Source: a virus
Direction: 5' to 3' (one strand)
Length of the DNA stretch: 44,796 bases
Virus record (IMG/VR): IMGVR_UViG_3300022188_000019
Location: 1-44,796 of that record
The stretch's first letter is position 1. Each line of letters starts with the position of its first letter. Positions 5,666-24,303 of the stretch are shown here, one piece after another. The notes under the pieces were generated by a model, which did not search any database, was not told where the DNA came from, and was given only the letters and a program-made list of their open reading frames with translations. Both the position numbers and the translations under genes were made by a program.

Positions 5666-5720
5666 CGATATCCTCCTTTCCCTGTGTTTCAAGTCTATAA
5701 TATGAACATTTTTCGATTTG

Positions 5721-6131
5721 TCAATACATCCAATGCTTAATTGCGTTACCAAATAAGCGCCGCCCTATCTTCGATAAAGTCCTACCAGCAAGCCTATGCT
5801 CATATCTCATTGCAAAAGATTTGCCAGATATGTTGTAAATAATACTTTTCGCTGCTATAAAATTACCAGCATCAGGCCTCGATGAAGTCTGAAGTGCAGG
5901 CGTATCCATCAACCTGAAAGTCTTCCTCTGCATAAACCTCTTTAGTCTGATTGCAACACCATAGGCATCACCTGTCTGCTTCTTGTGAAAGAATCTAAAA
6001 CCAAGATAGCGTGGCTTCGATGTATGATACATGTTCCTATATAGACCCCGTACCCACTCAAATGCCTTAGTAAACTTACCCCGTATACCAGATAATCTCA
6101 AAGGCGGTCTTTTAGGGTAAAATATCTTCAT
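5721..6131 (-). CDS. Basic hypothetical protein, first gene of leftward operon
   Basis: 136 aa, ATG at 6129-6131 (complement) with SD GAGGTG about 5 nt upstream and the promoter at 6152-6180 just beyond it. The protein is very rich in Arg and Lys (KRPPLRLSGIRGKF, RLKRFMQRKTFRL, SKIGRRLF) with few acids and no recognised domain. In composition it resembles the four basic proteins encoded at 19117-21804, although I see no convincing alignment. DNA or RNA binding is a reasonable guess. Confidence 0.72.
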   Translation of the reverse strand: MKIFYPKRPPLRLSGIRGKFTKAFEWVRGLYRNMYHTSKPRYLGFRFFHKKQTGDAYGVAIRLKRFMQRKTFRLMDTPALQTSSRPDAGNFIAAKSIIYNISGKSFAMRYEHRLAGRTLSKIGRRLFGNAIKHWMY

Positions 6132-6151
6132 TAGCTCACCTCGCTTCAGAT

Positions 6152-6180
6152 ATTATACCAGATGAATCGCATTGAGGCAA
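6152..6180 (-). promoter_or_regulatory. Sigma-70-type promoter of leftward replication operon
   Basis: On the minus strand: -35 TTGCCT (complement of 6175-6180), a 17-nt spacer, then a consensus -10 TATAAT (complement of 6152-6157) preceded by TGG, which also makes it an extended -10. The predicted start of transcription is near 6145, about 14 nt before the first ATG. Correct spacing and the position just upstream of the operon make this a strong call. Confidence 0.78.
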
Positions 6181-6190
6181 TACACCGTAT

Positions 6191-6240
6191 GCATAACAGA
6201 AACAAACGAAAAATGTTTTTTTCTTATTTTTCTGTTATGC
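6191..6240. repeat. 12-bp perfect inverted repeat with AT-rich loop
   Basis: GCATAACAGAAA at 6191-6202 is matched by its exact reverse complement at 6229-6240, separated by 26 bp of A/T-rich sequence that itself contains A-run/T-run symmetry. It spans the stop codon of the 667-aa gene (6235-6237). There is no T-run after either arm, so it is not a standard intrinsic terminator. GC skew of the plus strand changes sign here. It may be an operator, an RNA-stabilising hairpin or part of a replication origin. Confidence 0.7.
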
Positions 6241-8238
6241 TACCAATAATTGGAAGGCAAATAAGCACGGCTCCAAGGTCTTTGATGACAGATGGCTGTG
6301 GTAAGATTTTAATATAGCTTTCCCAAGCTGTTCACTGTAAGCAGATATTTGGTCTTTGTGTTTATTGATGACTTGTGTGTATTGATCTAGGATGTTTTCT
6401 ACGATGTTATAGATATTGCTTAGAGTGTGTATGAGTTTTGAGCGGAGGTTTTTGTTCTTTATGTGGTAGCTTATAGTGGTTGTAGTGTGAGTAAGGCTTG
6501 TTTGGATCTTGTAGGTATGGATTCTAAGGTTACTGGTATCTATGATTTGAGTATGTCTATTAGGGTTCCATGAGATCTTGTTTGAGCCATATAATGATGT
6601 CCATGATGGCATATAGTCTTTGAGTATGTGTTCCAGGGACAGTAGCTTATCGTACAGGTTATCAGGTAGGTAGAATCTGTTATTCAGTTTCATTGAGCGC
6701 AGGGTGTAGTAGGTGTGAAGCGCGCCATTGATGAGTGTGGTATCTTTGATGTTCTTACGGAGTTTGAATTGTTTTGTGAATAGCTTAGATAGTTTCTTAT
6801 GTAAGTTATGTATGAATGCAAGGTATCTGATATCGGTAACGACTCTGGGGATGGTACCGAGGGTAGGGATGGATTGAAGCGCGCCTATTATTTGTTCGCG
6901 TATGGAACCCTTAGATTTAATTAATTCGATATCTTTTGTATAAGGATCGTACATCATGATAGACAGGACATCACTGACCTCCATATTTGATTTTCTGCTT
7001 ACAGTGTAGACTTGGGAGGGGGAGAAGCCCGCCGCTTTGCGGAGGATCTTCTTTATGTACTTGCGCTTTGTTCCTTCATGACCGGTTGACCGCCTTAATC
7101 CATATAAGGTGCCTGTGGAAGCAAGCCGCTCAAGGACAGCTCTGCGTATACGGCTTCTCATGCGCGCCACGAGCTGTTCGTGCTTGTGCCCGTGGTTTTG
7201 CCTCACGAGCGCCTTGAGCCCTTGAGGATTATACAGTGATGTACGGTCAAACTCGGATAAAGGAACATAAGCGCCGAATTTTTTGCGATCGATGTAATAT
7301 CTCGTACCTATTATAAGATAAACTTCACCTGTGTCTTCTACATAAATGTAACGGATGTCATTGAGTTGTTTGTATAAGCGCAGCCCTTCTTCAATGTTTT
7401 TTACGCGTGTGATATTATCATCATATGCATAAACTCTCATGTATGCATAATCGGGCTTTTTGTAAAAGAAACCAAGTGCATCTGATATTTTTATGTATTC
7501 ACTGATACCGTGTTTTGCGTTGCGTCTCAGTGATGTATAAGCTGAAATGATCCTTTGAGATATCGGACGAGTTTCTTCCTGTGTGAGGTATATGAGCATT
7601 ACGAGCGCATGATCGCGTGTGTGTTTTGGATATCTGTTCAATGCTTCGATAGCATCATAGCGTACATAGACTTTTCCGAGTTTCCAGCCTACAGGAAGAT
7701 AATTTTCTGTTACGGCATTTAAGAGATTGATATCATCATCGAAATTGTTATTAAATATTGATCTATAAAGCCAGTAAAAATGTTTTCTCGGACTGAGGAT
7801 TGAAATGTTCCTTATCAGATTTGAGTTTTTACGATAATTGATGTTGATAATTCCAAGTTTCTGGAACAGGTCTGTGATTATTTCGAACCATTGGTTTACT
7901 GTGCATTTTTTACCATCGTAATACATTCCATCGAAATATTCCTGAACAAGGTTTTTGAATTGTGTATACGATATGCTTGTCTTTTTATCGCGGTAGAAAA
8001 GTGTTGTAAGGTGAAGGTAAAAGGACATTATACGGTCGGTGAGATGTACGGGTTGTTGTGATTTTCCTGTTGTAGTGAAATAGTCTAAAAGGGTTTCGCG
8101 GATATGGGCGTAGATCGGTATGTAGACCGGGAGGTAATGGGATTTGGGGAAGCGCCGCCCTTTTTTGCGCCGCTTCCTTTTTTTCTGTGTTGTATTCTGA
8201 TCTGCGCCCTTAATATGTTTTTGTTTTTTGTCTTCCAT
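6235..8238 (-). CDS. Unknown 667-aa basic protein, possible initiator or regulator
   Basis: No family recognised. The N-terminus is strongly basic (KKRKRRKKGRRF at about 19-30). Residues about 70-160 contain helical stretches (ISYTQFKNLVQEYF, then VNQWFEIITDLFQKLGI) that could form a winged helix, as in replication initiators. A second basic helical region lies around 370-430 (RMRSRIRRAVLERL), and the C-terminal third is Thr/Ser/Asn-rich. The ATG at 8236-8238 has no SD, and the predicted start of transcription is only about 4 nt upstream, so the mRNA may be nearly leaderless. Its coding strand is C-rich over G, opposite to the surrounding genes. Being the only gene controlled by the left half of the divergent palindromic promoter, it could be a replication initiator or a lytic/lysogenic regulator; both are inference. 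Confidence 0.8.
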   Translation of the reverse strand: MEDKKQKHIKGADQNTTQKKRKRRKKGRRFPKSHYLPVYIPIYAHIRETLLDYFTTTGKSQQPVHLTDRIMSFYLHLTTLFYRDKKTSISYTQFKNLVQEYFDGMYYDGKKCTVNQWFEIITDLFQKLGIININYRKNSNLIRNISILSPRKHFYWLYRSIFNNNFDDDINLLNAVTENYLPVGWKLGKVYVRYDAIEALNRYPKHTRDHALVMLIYLTQEETRPISQRIISAYTSLRRNAKHGISEYIKISDALGFFYKKPDYAYMRVYAYDDNITRVKNIEEGLRLYKQLNDIRYIYVEDTGEVYLIIGTRYYIDRKKFGAYVPLSEFDRTSLYNPQGLKALVRQNHGHKHEQLVARMRSRIRRAVLERLASTGTLYGLRRSTGHEGTKRKYIKKILRKAAGFSPSQVYTVSRKSNMEVSDVLSIMMYDPYTKDIELIKSKGSIREQIIGALQSIPTLGTIPRVVTDIRYLAFIHNLHKKLSKLFTKQFKLRKNIKDTTLINGALHTYYTLRSMKLNNRFYLPDNLYDKLLSLEHILKDYMPSWTSLYGSNKISWNPNRHTQIIDTSNLRIHTYKIQTSLTHTTTTISYHIKNKNLRSKLIHTLSNIYNIVENILDQYTQVINKHKDQISAYSEQLGKAILKSYHSHLSSKTLEPCLFAFQLLVA

Positions 8239-8248
8239 GCTAAGGATA

Positions 8249-8276
8249 ATGATATGGAAGCGCGCCTCTTTGTCAA
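8249..8276 (-). promoter_or_regulatory. Leftward promoter of the 667-aa gene
   Basis: On the minus strand: -35 TTGACA (complement of 8271-8276), a 16-nt spacer, then -10 TATCAT (complement of 8249-8254). The expected start of transcription is about 8242, leaving only about 4 nt before the ATG at 8238. The spacer contains the polar motif GGCGCGCTTCC. Its -35 box is the left end of the palindrome at 8271-8313. Confidence 0.7.
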
Positions 8277-8313
8277 GAGGAAAATAAATAATTTTTTATT
8301 TTTCCTATTGACA
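8271..8313. promoter_or_regulatory. 43-bp imperfect palindrome linking two divergent -35 boxes
   Basis: The segment begins TGTCAA, the leftward -35 read on the plus strand, and ends TTGACA, the rightward -35. Inside, AGGAAAATAAA (from 8278) mirrors TTTATTTTTCCT (ending 8306) with a single-base bulge. Both -35 boxes and the A/T-rich centre therefore form one near-symmetric site. A protein dimer bound here would cover both promoters at once. No other copy was noticed in the window. Confidence 0.72.
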
Positions 8314-8335
8314 TTTATGACTTGTTGTTTATAAT
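8308..8335 (+). promoter_or_regulatory. Consensus rightward promoter of the early/metabolic genes
   Basis: Perfect -35 TTGACA (8308-8313), 16-nt spacer, perfect -10 TATAAT (8330-8335). The start of transcription is expected near 8342, followed by SD AAGGAGG (8358-8364) and the RNase HII ATG at 8371. This is the closest match to the sigma-70 consensus in the window and the likely strong early promoter for the rightward genes. Confidence 0.88.
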
Positions 8336-8370
8336 ACCCAATAGAACAGATCATATGAAGGAGGTTAAAG

Positions 8371-9078
8371 ATGGCTGCTTATCAGATTGGTATTGATGAG
8401 GTTGGAGCTGCTGCGTGGGCGGGGCCTATGGGTATGGCTGGTGTTGTGATAAACAGGTGGGGTATGGAAAGGAAGCCCCGCGATTGTAAGTCGTTTTCGA
8501 GTCATAGTGCTCGTGTGACTTATTTGAAGCGCGCGCTTGATACATCTGATTTTGATTATGTATTTGTTTTGATACCACCGGCATTTATAGATCGTGCTGG
8601 GATGACGGAAGCGCGCCGCTTAGGTGTATTTTTCATAACCACATCGTTTATGGAAGGCCTAGGATATGATGATAATGATATCGAGACTATAATTGATGGT
8701 AAGTATAATTTTGGTGCAAATAAACATTTGATTAAAGGTGATACGAAGTTGCTCAACATTTCGTTTGCATCTGTGATAGCGAAAGTTTTGCGCGATAGAG
8801 TTATGATGACTGTGTTTGATGAGGATCATGATTATTGGTTATGGAAGAGCAATAAAGGGTATTATTCAAAGAGTCATCTTGAGAGAGTGAAGCAGTATGG
8901 TTTAACTGATTGGCATAGGAGACGATGGAGGATAAATGTTGATGCGCATGAATCTGATATTAAAGTTGGTAATGCTGATGATGTTGTTATTGTGATGGGG
9001 AAAGATGTTTTGGAAGATGTTGATAAGTTTAATAAAAAGATAGCGTATAAGAGATACAAGGTGAATTTTATTATGTAA
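8371..9078 (+). CDS. rnhB: Ribonuclease HII-like protein with altered GRG motif
   Basis: 235 aa. RNase HII cleaves RNA in RNA/DNA hybrids and at single ribonucleotides in DNA. Visible are GIDEVG (D9, E10), IIDG (D109), KGD (D124) and ASVIAKVLRDRVM, so the DEDD catalytic set is present, followed by a GYYSKSHLERVKQYG...HRRR tail typical of the family. The family GRG motif after the first Asp/Glu pair, which senses the ribonucleotide 2'-OH, reads GAA here (residues 12-14), a marked change. A C-terminal extension of about 45 residues is acidic, then basic. First gene after the rightward promoter, with an excellent SD. It probably removes primers or ribonucleotides during phage replication; the changed motif may alter junction recognition. 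Confidence 0.88.
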   Translation: MAAYQIGIDEVGAAAWAGPMGMAGVVINRWGMERKPRDCKSFSSHSARVTYLKRALDTSDFDYVFVLIPPAFIDRAGMTEARRLGVFFITTSFMEGLGYDDNDIETIIDGKYNFGANKHLIKGDTKLLNISFASVIAKVLRDRVMMTVFDEDHDYWLWKSNKGYYSKSHLERVKQYGLTDWHRRRWRINVDAHESDIKVGNADDVVIVMGKDVLEDVDKFNKKIAYKRYKVNFIM

Positions 9079-16440: not shown

Positions 16441-16576
16441 GAAAATTTCTATTGACAAAAGGGATCGTGATGATATTATATATGTTGAGCCTTGGAAAGA
16501 TATGTATGAATATATTGGATTATATGGGACATTATTCAATATAAGGCTTTGGATGCAAAAAGATAGGAGGTATTAA
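16376..16576 (+). CDS. Small hypothetical protein (66 aa), TTG start
   Basis: A TTG at 16376 lies 9 nt after a very strong SD (AAGGAGG, 16360-16366), inside the last codons of the phosphoesterase gene, which it overlaps by 65 nt. The product is Met/Tyr-rich at its start (KQVYMYMHLVMVNQML), then basic and acidic, ending WMQKDRRY. It ends one base before the next gene's ATG. No family is recognised. The SD and tight spacing are the main evidence that it is real. Confidence 0.6.
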   Translation: MEIPPKQVYMYMHLVMVNQMLRKISIDKRDRDDIIYVEPWKDMYEYIGLYGTLFNIRLWMQKDRRY

Positions 16577-21825: not shown

Positions 21826-24303
21826 ATGAAAGATCTTGATTCACTTTTAAAAAAAGTTGTAAAGGACAAGGTTTTATTTATCAAAACATTCTTTGTTGAT
21901 CCAGATGAACCATCGAAGCCTTTTATTCCGTATGATTTCCAAGAAAAGATGTTAAGGGATGATAGTGCGCTTAAAGTTTATAGATTGGGGCGTCAGACGG
22001 GTAAGACTACGATGATGGCGCTTGAGCCATTATATTATATGTTGACGCGCCCCAATTATAGGGTTGTTTTTGTAGCGCCTGAGGGGCATCAGGTTTTGCG
22101 TTATTTTGAGAGGTATTTACTGTTTTTTCTTCAGAATTCGGTGTTCTCAAATTATATAGAGACTAAGCGTCGAAGTCCTACTGTGTATCTTGCGTTAAAG
22201 AATGGGAGCGCGCTTGAGGGTTTTGTGGGTAATGCTCAGCAGACTGATATTCGTGGTGTTTCTGCTGATATGATAGTTATAGATGAGTGTTTTGATAAGT
22301 TCACTTATGTTATAACACCGAAGGGTAAGAAGTATATTTATCAAATCAAGCCAGGTGATTATGTTTTGGATGCGAGTGGTAAATGGAATAGGGTTTTGGA
22401 GGCGCGCTCCACGGGGCTTAAAAAAACGATCGCGCTTAAAACATTTTTCTTTGATAAGCCGATATATGTGACACCTGATCATCCTTTTTATTATAAGGAA
22501 GGCTGGGTTGAAGTATCGAAGAAAGATACTATTCCTATTTTTGTTGGTGTTCATGATGAATCTATAAATGAGATAGATTTACTTGCTATACATTATTATT
22601 ATTTATTGATAAAATCGCATCAACTTGGATATATAAGGCTTGAGTATAAAGAGTTTAATGTAAATGATAAGTATTTATCTTACTATCTGAGATTTAAACT
22701 TGATATTGAGAAAGTTTATAAGACATTGGAGTCAGTGGAAGAGACTGTAAGAAATCTTGATGAAAAAGATAAGAAACGATTTATCCGGACTGCATCTGTT
22801 TTCCTTTGCAATTATACTCCTGCTATATCAGATGTTTTGAGGGAATTAGGATATGAAGTTCGCTATGGGCAGATTGTGAATTCGAATGACAAATTTGTCT
22901 ATGATGTTGGTATTGGTTTATCATATAATAATGTTGAGAAGGTGCTTGCATTATCAGAAAAATTGAATATACCGGTATCTGATATTTATGATAGTGATAA
23001 TTTTGATATAAAGTCATCAGTGTATTGGGTAAAATACGAATTTTCTGATGGTGGTATGCGTGATGTTTATAATTTAAAAACTGAGTCTGGTACATATATG
23101 ATTTATCATGAGGGTTTTTATATACCAGTTCATAATTGTGATTATTTACATGATAAAGTTTTTAGGTCTATTGGTGGAACTATTTTGGGTAGGCGTAGGA
23201 AGGTGCGCTTCATAGTTGGTTCAACACCAACAGCAAAGAAAGGATATTTCTGGTCGATATGCCAGCCGGGGTCGGGCTTCTCCCAACATCACTATCCATC
23301 GTGGGTGCTTCCTCATTGGACTTGGATGAAGGATGCAGAAAAGTTGGGTATAGATGTTTCAGAGACGCTTGAATTTAAATTTCGACAATCTTGTATGAAT
23401 GATCCGATTGTTTGGAAGCTTGAGGTTGAGGCTGAATTTGTTGATACTGCGGAAAGTGTGTTTTCCGCAAAGGATATTGATTATGCATTACAATCTTATA
23501 ATAGGGATGATTCAAGAGCGAAGCGCGGGCCTATTTTCATGGGTATAGATTGGAATTCAGTAGCGCATGGTATTGTTGTAGTTTTACTTGAGTGGGATAA
23601 CAAAGAGCAGGTTTTAAGATATATTTATGATGAGCAGATTACAAAGGAGAAATATCATCACATATATGCGCGTGAAAGGATAATAGATATTGTTAACGAG
23701 TTTAATGTTGATTATATTTATGCGGACTATGGTTATGGTGAACAGAATATGCAGGAACTTGCGAGGTATGGAGAAAAGATTGGAGATAAGAGACTTGTTG
23801 ATCTTGTTCCTGTTGTTTTTAATAGGAAGATTGATATATTTTTGGGTTGGGCGAGAGAGAAGTTTGATATAAAACAATTTTTGGTGACATTTTTGAATTC
23901 ATTATTGCGCGGTAAACAATTGCAATTAAATCCTGAATTTGCTTCGTCAAAAAATGAAGAATTTGTTTTAGCACAAAATAAGAATAGTATTGAGTATCAA
24001 TTGAGGAATTATCAAATTACTAAAATTACGCCAGAAGGTCATATCAAATATGATGTTGTTCCTGACCATCATCTTATGGCGATGTTTTGTGCTCTTTATG
24101 GTTTTTGGGATGTTATGCAACCTGAATTTGATCCTACTGCAAATAGGTACAAAGCATCGGGTGAATTTAATACAAAATATATGTCTTATGTGCCTATTGC
24201 GGGTATTGTAAGAGAGGATTTATCTGGTAGGATAATAAATAGGACTGCTGATCTTGAGTTAAATCCGTATATTCCGATTGATGAGGAGGATTGGTGGAAA
24301 TGA
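21826..24303 (+). CDS. terL: Terminase large subunit with intein
   Basis: Packaging motor ATPase and nuclease. Walker A is RLGRQTGKTT (G55-T61, Lys60); Walker B is MIVIDE, with the catalytic Glu at residue 154 followed directly by a 283-aa intein (155-437). Spliced, the motif reads VIDECDYL. The C-terminal nuclease shows FMGIDWNS (D575), IYADYGYG (D634) and VPDHHLM (D747). Frame 825 codons; spliced product about 542 aa, normal for TerL. SD is poor (TTGATATATT before ATG), suggesting low expression or coupling. The residue after the intein is Cys, so the splice product keeps Cys next to the catalytic Glu. Confidence 0.95.
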   Translation: MKDLDSLLKKVVKDKVLFIKTFFVDPDEPSKPFIPYDFQEKMLRDDSALKVYRLGRQTGKTTMMALEPLYYMLTRPNYRVVFVAPEGHQVLRYFERYLLFFLQNSVFSNYIETKRRSPTVYLALKNGSALEGFVGNAQQTDIRGVSADMIVIDECFDKFTYVITPKGKKYIYQIKPGDYVLDASGKWNRVLEARSTGLKKTIALKTFFFDKPIYVTPDHPFYYKEGWVEVSKKDTIPIFVGVHDESINEIDLLAIHYYYLLIKSHQLGYIRLEYKEFNVNDKYLSYYLRFKLDIEKVYKTLESVEETVRNLDEKDKKRFIRTASVFLCNYTPAISDVLRELGYEVRYGQIVNSNDKFVYDVGIGLSYNNVEKVLALSEKLNIPVSDIYDSDNFDIKSSVYWVKYEFSDGGMRDVYNLKTESGTYMIYHEGFYIPVHNCDYLHDKVFRSIGGTILGRRRKVRFIVGSTPTAKKGYFWSICQPGSGFSQHHYPSWVLPHWTWMKDAEKLGIDVSETLEFKFRQSCMNDPIVWKLEVEAEFVDTAESVFSAKDIDYALQSYNRDDSRAKRGPIFMGIDWNSVAHGIVVVLLEWDNKEQVLRYIYDEQITKEKYHHIYARERIIDIVNEFNVDYIYADYGYGEQNMQELARYGEKIGDKRLVDLVPVVFNRKIDIFLGWAREKFDIKQFLVTFLNSLLRGKQLQLNPEFASSKNEEFVLAQNKNSIEYQLRNYQITKITPEGHIKYDVVPDHHLMAMFCALYGFWDVMQPEFDPTANRYKASGEFNTKYMSYVPIAGIVREDLSGRIINRTADLELNPYIPIDEEDWWK
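22288..23136 (+). other. Intein in TerL (283 aa)
   Basis: Begins CFDKFTYVITPKG right after the Walker B Glu and ends YIPVHN before Cys+1. Blocks: A (CFDKFTYVI), B (YVTPDHPFYY), F (DVYNLKTESGTYMIYHEGFY), G (PVHN|C). The central approximately 130 residues (LLAIHYYYLLIKSHQLG, later FIRTASVFLCNYTPAI) could be remains of a LAGLIDADG nuclease, but no intact acidic motif is seen. Splicing residues look intact. Confidence 0.92.

Follow-up and report, generated by a model that had tools for sequence, protein, structure and literature searches.

Two divergent near-consensus promoters and a probable shared UP-like element in a phage contig

Introduction

In a viral contig of 44,796 nucleotides (IMG/VR record IMGVR_UViG_3300022188_000019; this whole stretch is called the window below), two promoters point away from each other at positions 8249 to 8335, and the DNA from one -35 box to the other reads as an imperfect palindrome. 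Does this symmetry mark the site of a regulator that governs both sides together, or does it follow from the promoters themselves? An initial annotation had taken the former view and described the locus as a decision or timing switch.

Gene layout and relatives of the window

The window is 44.8 kb of DNA with a G+C content of 37%. The genes on the two sides of the locus run in opposite directions, and the following features frame it:

Left of 8.24 kb, leftward genes: 667-aa orphan, small genes, Holliday-junction resolvase, UvsX/RecA-like recombinase, family B DNA polymerase
Right of 8.37 kb, rightward genes: RNase HII, dUTPase, amidase, ribonucleotide reductase, exonuclease, terminase, portal, capsid, sheath
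6235..8238, - strand: 667-aa orphan gene with a predicted N-terminal winged helix, no Shine-Dalgarno site and a leader of 2-5 nt
8371..9078, + strand: RNase HII-like gene, 235 aa (Pfam RNase_HII, E 4.6e-17)
8358..8364, + strand: Shine-Dalgarno AAGGAGG of the RNase HII-like gene
6152..6180, - strand: candidate promoter TTGCCT-17-TATAAT, read by eye, for the leftward genes beyond the 667-aa gene

It had been held that the site parts the 667-aa gene from the early genes. The 667-aa gene is indeed on the left, but the recombinase and DNA polymerase genes stand further left, possibly under promoters of their own. The layout also lends no support to a decision switch. No lysogeny gene was found among the proteins scanned and no repeated operator set, and the flanks are devoted to replication and recombination on the left and to nucleotide metabolism on the right.

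Capsid alignment was the sole source of relatives, all of them distant. The capsid and terminase share 22-30% identity with those of Moorella phage MTATph1, Bacillus phage KLEB27-3 and Acinetobacter phage ME3, and the late-gene order of MTATph1 is similar to that of the window. Because of these matches and this gene order, the window probably comes from a phage with a contractile tail and a genome of more than this length; the phage belongs to a little-known lineage, distantly akin to the three named. Within the terminase large subunit (21826-24303), an intein-like stretch appears in the alignment between the ATPase motifs, and the terminases of the relatives seem to be likewise interrupted. 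Another insert may be present in the ribonucleotide reductase, which is 1085 aa long.

Close relatives were found among phages neither by megablast of half the window nor by distant blastn of 6100-8500. A tblastn of the 667-aa protein gave nothing in phages and plasmids, and peptide scans gave nothing either in viral contigs (667-aa protein, RNase HII, PolB, terminase) or, for the 667-aa protein, in genomes. Only one of 47 records, a sequence of 108.9 kb (G005), carries both PolB (37% identity) and RNase HII (31%). In this record, the nearest usable relative, the RNase HII gene is the last of a rightward operon and leftward genes converge on its 3' end, whereas the gene heads the operon in the window. 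As it follows other rightward genes there, the divergent arrangement is not common to both.

A divergent promoter pair of one class

Two divergent promoters with 16-nt spacers had been placed at this locus, and both are there:

8271..8276, - strand: -35 box TTGACA, leftward promoter
8249..8254, - strand: -10 box TATCAT, leftward promoter (predicted start 8240-8243)
8308..8313, + strand: -35 box TTGACA, rightward promoter
8330..8335, + strand: -10 box TATAAT, rightward promoter (predicted start 8341-8344)
8257..8266, + strand: copy of the genome-wide GAAGCGCGCC motif, within the spacer of the leftward promoter

The rightward promoter (TTGACA at 8308-8313, 16 nt, TATAAT at 8330-8335) matches the consensus at 12 of 12 positions and the leftward one (TTGACA at 8276-8271, 16 nt, TATCAT at 8254-8249) at 11 of 12. 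Among sites with a spacer of 16-18, the former is the only 12/12 match in the window (shuffle mean 0.075), and eight sites reach at least 11/12, against 2.95 in shuffles. By its sequence, the pair is one of divergent near-consensus promoters of the sigma-70/sigma-A type, beyond what chance would give.

The exact pattern TTGACA-N16..18-TATNAT is found four times in the window, every time with a spacer of 16 nt; records of related phages, which are as long as 235 kb, have 0-3 such sites each. The four sites are:

5697-5724, - strand
8249-8276, - strand: the leftward promoter
8308-8335, + strand: the rightward promoter
16452-16479, + strand

As all four have 16-nt spacers, they suggest one promoter class, possibly early. 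Three of the four read TATTGACA. At the 16452 site, AGGAAAA also stands directly upstream. A tendency of loosely matching strong promoters to cluster at spacer 16 was considered as well and was unsupported in the count of 5/6 + 5/6 matches; the exact sites alone cluster.

A shared A/T tract as a UP-like element

Between the two -35 boxes lies the most A/T-rich DNA of the locus:

8281..8303, no strand: 23-nt pure A/T run, proposed shared UP-like element, at about -40 to -60 of both promoters

No other pure A/T run in the 44.8 kb is as long, the next being 18 nt. With the starts set 7 nt after the -10 boxes, at 8342 and 8242, the -40 to -60 regions of the rightward and the leftward promoter fall on identical bases, 8282-8302. 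The A/T content of the upstream tracts is 91%, as compared with 63% in the background. The score against the UP consensus is 10/14 for both promoters, which is mildly above background and is reached by about 6% of random places. A UP element at this position is contacted by the C-terminal domain of the RNA polymerase alpha subunit and acts in Bacillus (PMC4495994). Strong GGAGG Shine-Dalgarno sites are present in the window and, together with the distant kinship to Moorella and Bacillus phages, they fit a host with UP-type promoters.

The site is thus best read as two strong early promoters of the same class, set back to back and sharing a UP-like element, and we regard this reading as probable. 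Host RNA polymerase would read both promoters, the rightward one leading into RNase HII and nucleotide metabolism and the leftward one into the 667-aa winged-helix protein. The alpha-subunit C-terminal domains would use 8281-8303 as a UP element from either side, so that both units could be strongly on together at the start of infection, ahead of any phage regulator. The palindrome would then be mostly a by-product of two like promoters facing apart, since the shared element and the two like -35 boxes would explain the A/T centre and most of the symmetry. The finding is genuine, but paired strong promoters on a shared A/T tract look like a well-built early-gene start site of a familiar type. 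If this reading is true, the locus is a compact case of a phage firing its replication-side and nucleotide-side units together through one A/T element, and a convenient place to test whether a single UP element can serve two polymerases or sets them in competition.

Symmetry beyond the -35 boxes and a possible operator

The palindrome and its inner arms are placed as follows:

8271..8313, no strand: 43-bp imperfect palindrome, arms 8271-8291 and 8293-8313, 17 of 21 matched, single central base
8278..8284, + strand: AGGAAAA, the left inner arm, with symmetry outside the -35 box
8300..8306, + strand: right inner arm TTTTCCT, pairing with AGGAAAA

The palindrome is where the initial annotation had put it. 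When the intergenic region was shuffled 2000 times and the window 12 times, 17 of 21 arm matches never arose. Six of the 17 matches are the two -35 boxes; they come free, as identical -35 boxes facing apart are themselves an inverted repeat. Without the boxes, the inner 31 bp match at 11 of 15 positions (p 0.006 by dinucleotide shuffle). The pair AGGAAAA/TTTTCCT is a run of seven symmetric base pairs (p 0.003-0.006) with a gap of 15 bp. The best axis of symmetry for the A/T core is 8291.5, which differs by half a base from the outer centre at 8292.

As a control, viral contigs were scanned for consensus promoters in divergent pairs whose -35 boxes are 15-45 bp apart, which gave at least 120 stretches with 114 distinct centres; in these pairs the right spacer is 17 nt and the -10 boxes are exact, so that they are similar in kind to the window's pair, not identical. 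Among the matches listed, the 114 centres have a mean symmetry of 0.43 and an A/T fraction of 0.74, against a background of 0.63, and the window's inner symmetry of 0.73 is equalled or exceeded in 2 of 114. Two contigs (L098, 3689-3786; L100, 1290-1378) have an 11-bp element, GAACTATTTTT / AAAAATAGTTC, exactly mirrored next to the two -35 boxes, which shows that such upstream elements occur elsewhere. Taken as a whole, the symmetry beyond the -35 boxes appears modestly above expectation.

The inner AGGAAAA/TTTTCCT symmetry is not demanded by a UP element. It is here that an operator has to be weighed. A dimer, possibly of the 667-aa winged-helix protein, would bind AGGAAAA-15 bp-TTTTCCT and lower or stop both promoters, giving an autoregulated early-to-middle timing. 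Besides the seven consecutive symmetric pairs outside the boxes and the scarcity of such symmetry among the control pairs, the spacing suits this proposal, as the centres of the inner arms are 22 bp apart, or about two helical turns, on the same face of the helix as a dimer needs. The N-terminus of the 667-aa protein is confidently predicted as a winged helix (mean pLDDT 83), and the sites of phi29 p4 are A-tract inverted repeats that likewise have a 15-bp gap and lie over -35 boxes (PMC3100819). However, the bases are unlike those of the p4 site, and the p value of the inner symmetry is 0.04 once the composition of each half is kept. The dyad has no second copy in the window, whose 13 copies of AGGAAAA, counted over both strands, mostly lack a partner, and 667 aa is unusually large for a local repressor. 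On this balance, an operator is possible but doubtful. If true, it would name a target for an orphan phage DNA-binding protein.

The operator and the UP-like element may coexist. In such a combination, the 667-aa protein would be produced early from its almost leaderless mRNA, and its dimer on AGGAAAA-15-TTTTCCT, within the shared element, would hide the booster from the alpha subunit and shut both early units, which we think unlikely. The earlier proposal of one symmetric protein at the centre is upheld in part, in that the symmetry exceeds the -35 boxes, but such a protein is not needed, as a shared UP-like element would explain the A/T centre and mirrored A/T elements also adjoin the -35 boxes of other divergent viral pairs.

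A role of the palindrome in RNA is rejected, for it lies upstream of both predicted starts; Rfam also gave no match. The palindrome pattern TGTCAANAGGAAAA..TTTTCCTNTTGACA was not found in viral contigs. A looser pattern had six genome matches (Flavobacterium, Dyadobacter and MAGs), which are near-perfect hairpins, have no -10 boxes where looked at, and are unrelated. In three Flavobacterium-type genomes (L218, L219, L223), the near-perfect hairpin TGTCAACAGGAAA...TTTCCTGTTGACA has shared flanks and is a dispersed element, unrelated to the window.

The 667-aa gene and its protein

Searches of Pfam, PHROGs, NCBIfam and PDB sequences with the 667-aa protein gave nothing. Its whole-length structure prediction is poor (mean pLDDT 43) except for the winged helix, while residues 36-165, predicted alone, give a winged helix at about 39-162 with a mean pLDDT of 83. 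The fold matches are many, weak and generic, including MarR/PadR regulators, ORC winged helices, plasmid Rep initiators and MukF; with E above 0.01 and Z below 8, they indicate a winged helix and nothing finer. From this predicted fold, the protein may bind DNA, as a regulator or as a replication initiator.

The start codon of the gene has no Shine-Dalgarno site, unlike most ATG genes of the window. As it lies 2-5 nt from the predicted transcription start, the leftward mRNA would be translated close to leaderless, for which the lambda cI mRNA offers a comparison (PMC9031893). The gene also seems to be its own transcription unit, since the candidate promoter at 6180-6152 would serve the next leftward genes and another palindrome follows the gene:

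6191..6240, no strand: strongest palindrome of the window, 23-nt arms, 87% matched, at the 3' end of the 667-aa gene

This inverted repeat is longer and better matched than the one at 8271-8313, and is a candidate terminator, possibly bidirectional, or origin structure.

The gene stands apart in composition. Of the 39 genes, it alone favours C and A at third codon positions (its GC3 skew is -0.39, that of the others +0.34 to +0.86), and its GC3 of 0.45 is the highest in the window, as if it were foreign or ran against the direction of replication. A 2-kb acquired cassette, with the 667-aa gene and its flanking A/T palindromes as the insert and 8271-8313 as a boundary hairpin, would suit this composition and the presence of a palindrome at both ends. 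The two ends have no matching terminal repeats or target duplication, though, no integrase or transposase was seen among the proteins scanned, and the gene carries the AAGCGC motif at normal density and in the usual orientation relative to transcription. We regard such an insertion as very improbable.

A polarised motif and the question of an origin

The motif KAAGCGC(C/G)C is about 11-fold over-represented across the whole window, with 103 AAGCGC against 9.4 expected. It occurs in all reading frames and intergenically, for instance at 8257-8266, 8527-8541 and 8609-8617, and 35 of 75 Ala-Leu pairs are encoded by GCGCTT. Up to about 8.6 kb it lies on the + strand and from about 9.1 kb onwards on the - strand, so that transcripts have GCGCTT. 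The enrichment was found in none of the relatives checked. A Chi-like, uptake-like or RNA-level signal is possible. The main surprises of the window, apart from the promoter pair, are this motif with its polarity, which is more striking than the pair, and the unusual base composition of the 667-aa gene.

The flip in polarity around 8.3-9.1 kb bears on a further proposal, in which the locus is a replication origin. The A/T palindrome would melt or bind an initiator, the 667-aa protein being Rep-like, and the promoters would provide activating transcription. The locus holds the longest A/T run of the window, replication genes lie to its left, and the winged-helix matches include, though weakly, the plasmid Rep initiators 5kbj and 4pql and phage replication proteins. 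The sign of the GC skew, however, changes at about 6.1-6.2 kb (6131-6240), at the stronger palindrome 6191-6240 and not at 8.3 kb. There are no iterated initiator boxes near 8.3 kb, and the fold matches, at the scores given above, go no further than a winged helix. An origin at this place is very unlikely.

Comparison with known systems

Against lambda-type control, 7900-8700 contains no repeated dyad, only the single palindrome, and no small repressors such as CI and Cro flank the locus, which has RNase HII on one side and the 667-aa orphan on the other. Divergent regulator/target pairs of the TetR/MarR type share one palindromic operator. The window resembles them in having a palindrome between divergent genes, one of which encodes a predicted winged-helix protein, but that protein has 667 aa and belongs to no known family.

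In pLS20, the core promoters Pc and Pr overlap, and the operators are iterated with looping (PMC4207663). As in the window, the divergent promoters lie between a gene for a DNA-binding protein (predicted in the window) and an operon, but neither the overlap nor iterated operators are seen here. Bidirectional promoters with one shared symmetric -10 have starts 10-23 bp apart (PMC12825309). In them, too, the symmetry of the sequence yields divergent transcription; the promoters of the window, however, have separate -10 boxes (8249-8254 and 8330-8335), are joined at the -35/UP side, and have predicted starts about 100 bp apart.

Dimers of phi29 p4 bind A-tract inverted repeats that are imperfect, have arms 15 bp apart and overlap the -35 boxes of A2b and A2c (PMC3100819). 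There, as in the operator reading of the window, a symmetric phage dimer would touch promoters on both sides. The sequence is CTTTTT-15-AAAATG at four sites in phi29, and AGGAAAA-15-TTTTCCT at one site in the window, and no relative of p4 was recognised among the window proteins scanned. The initial annotation had rightly set the locus apart from lambda operators, but this does not make it special, as the p4 dimer sites also overlap early-promoter -35 boxes (PMC3100819).

For the preferred reading, a shared UP-like element, the likeness is with strong phage early promoters of the phi29 type (Bacillus) that carry UP elements (PMC4495994), in the TTGACA/TATAAT cores, the A/T tract at -40 to -60 and the use, predicted for the window, of the host polymerase. 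The difference predicted from the sequence is that, in the window, a single tract would serve two promoters pointing apart.
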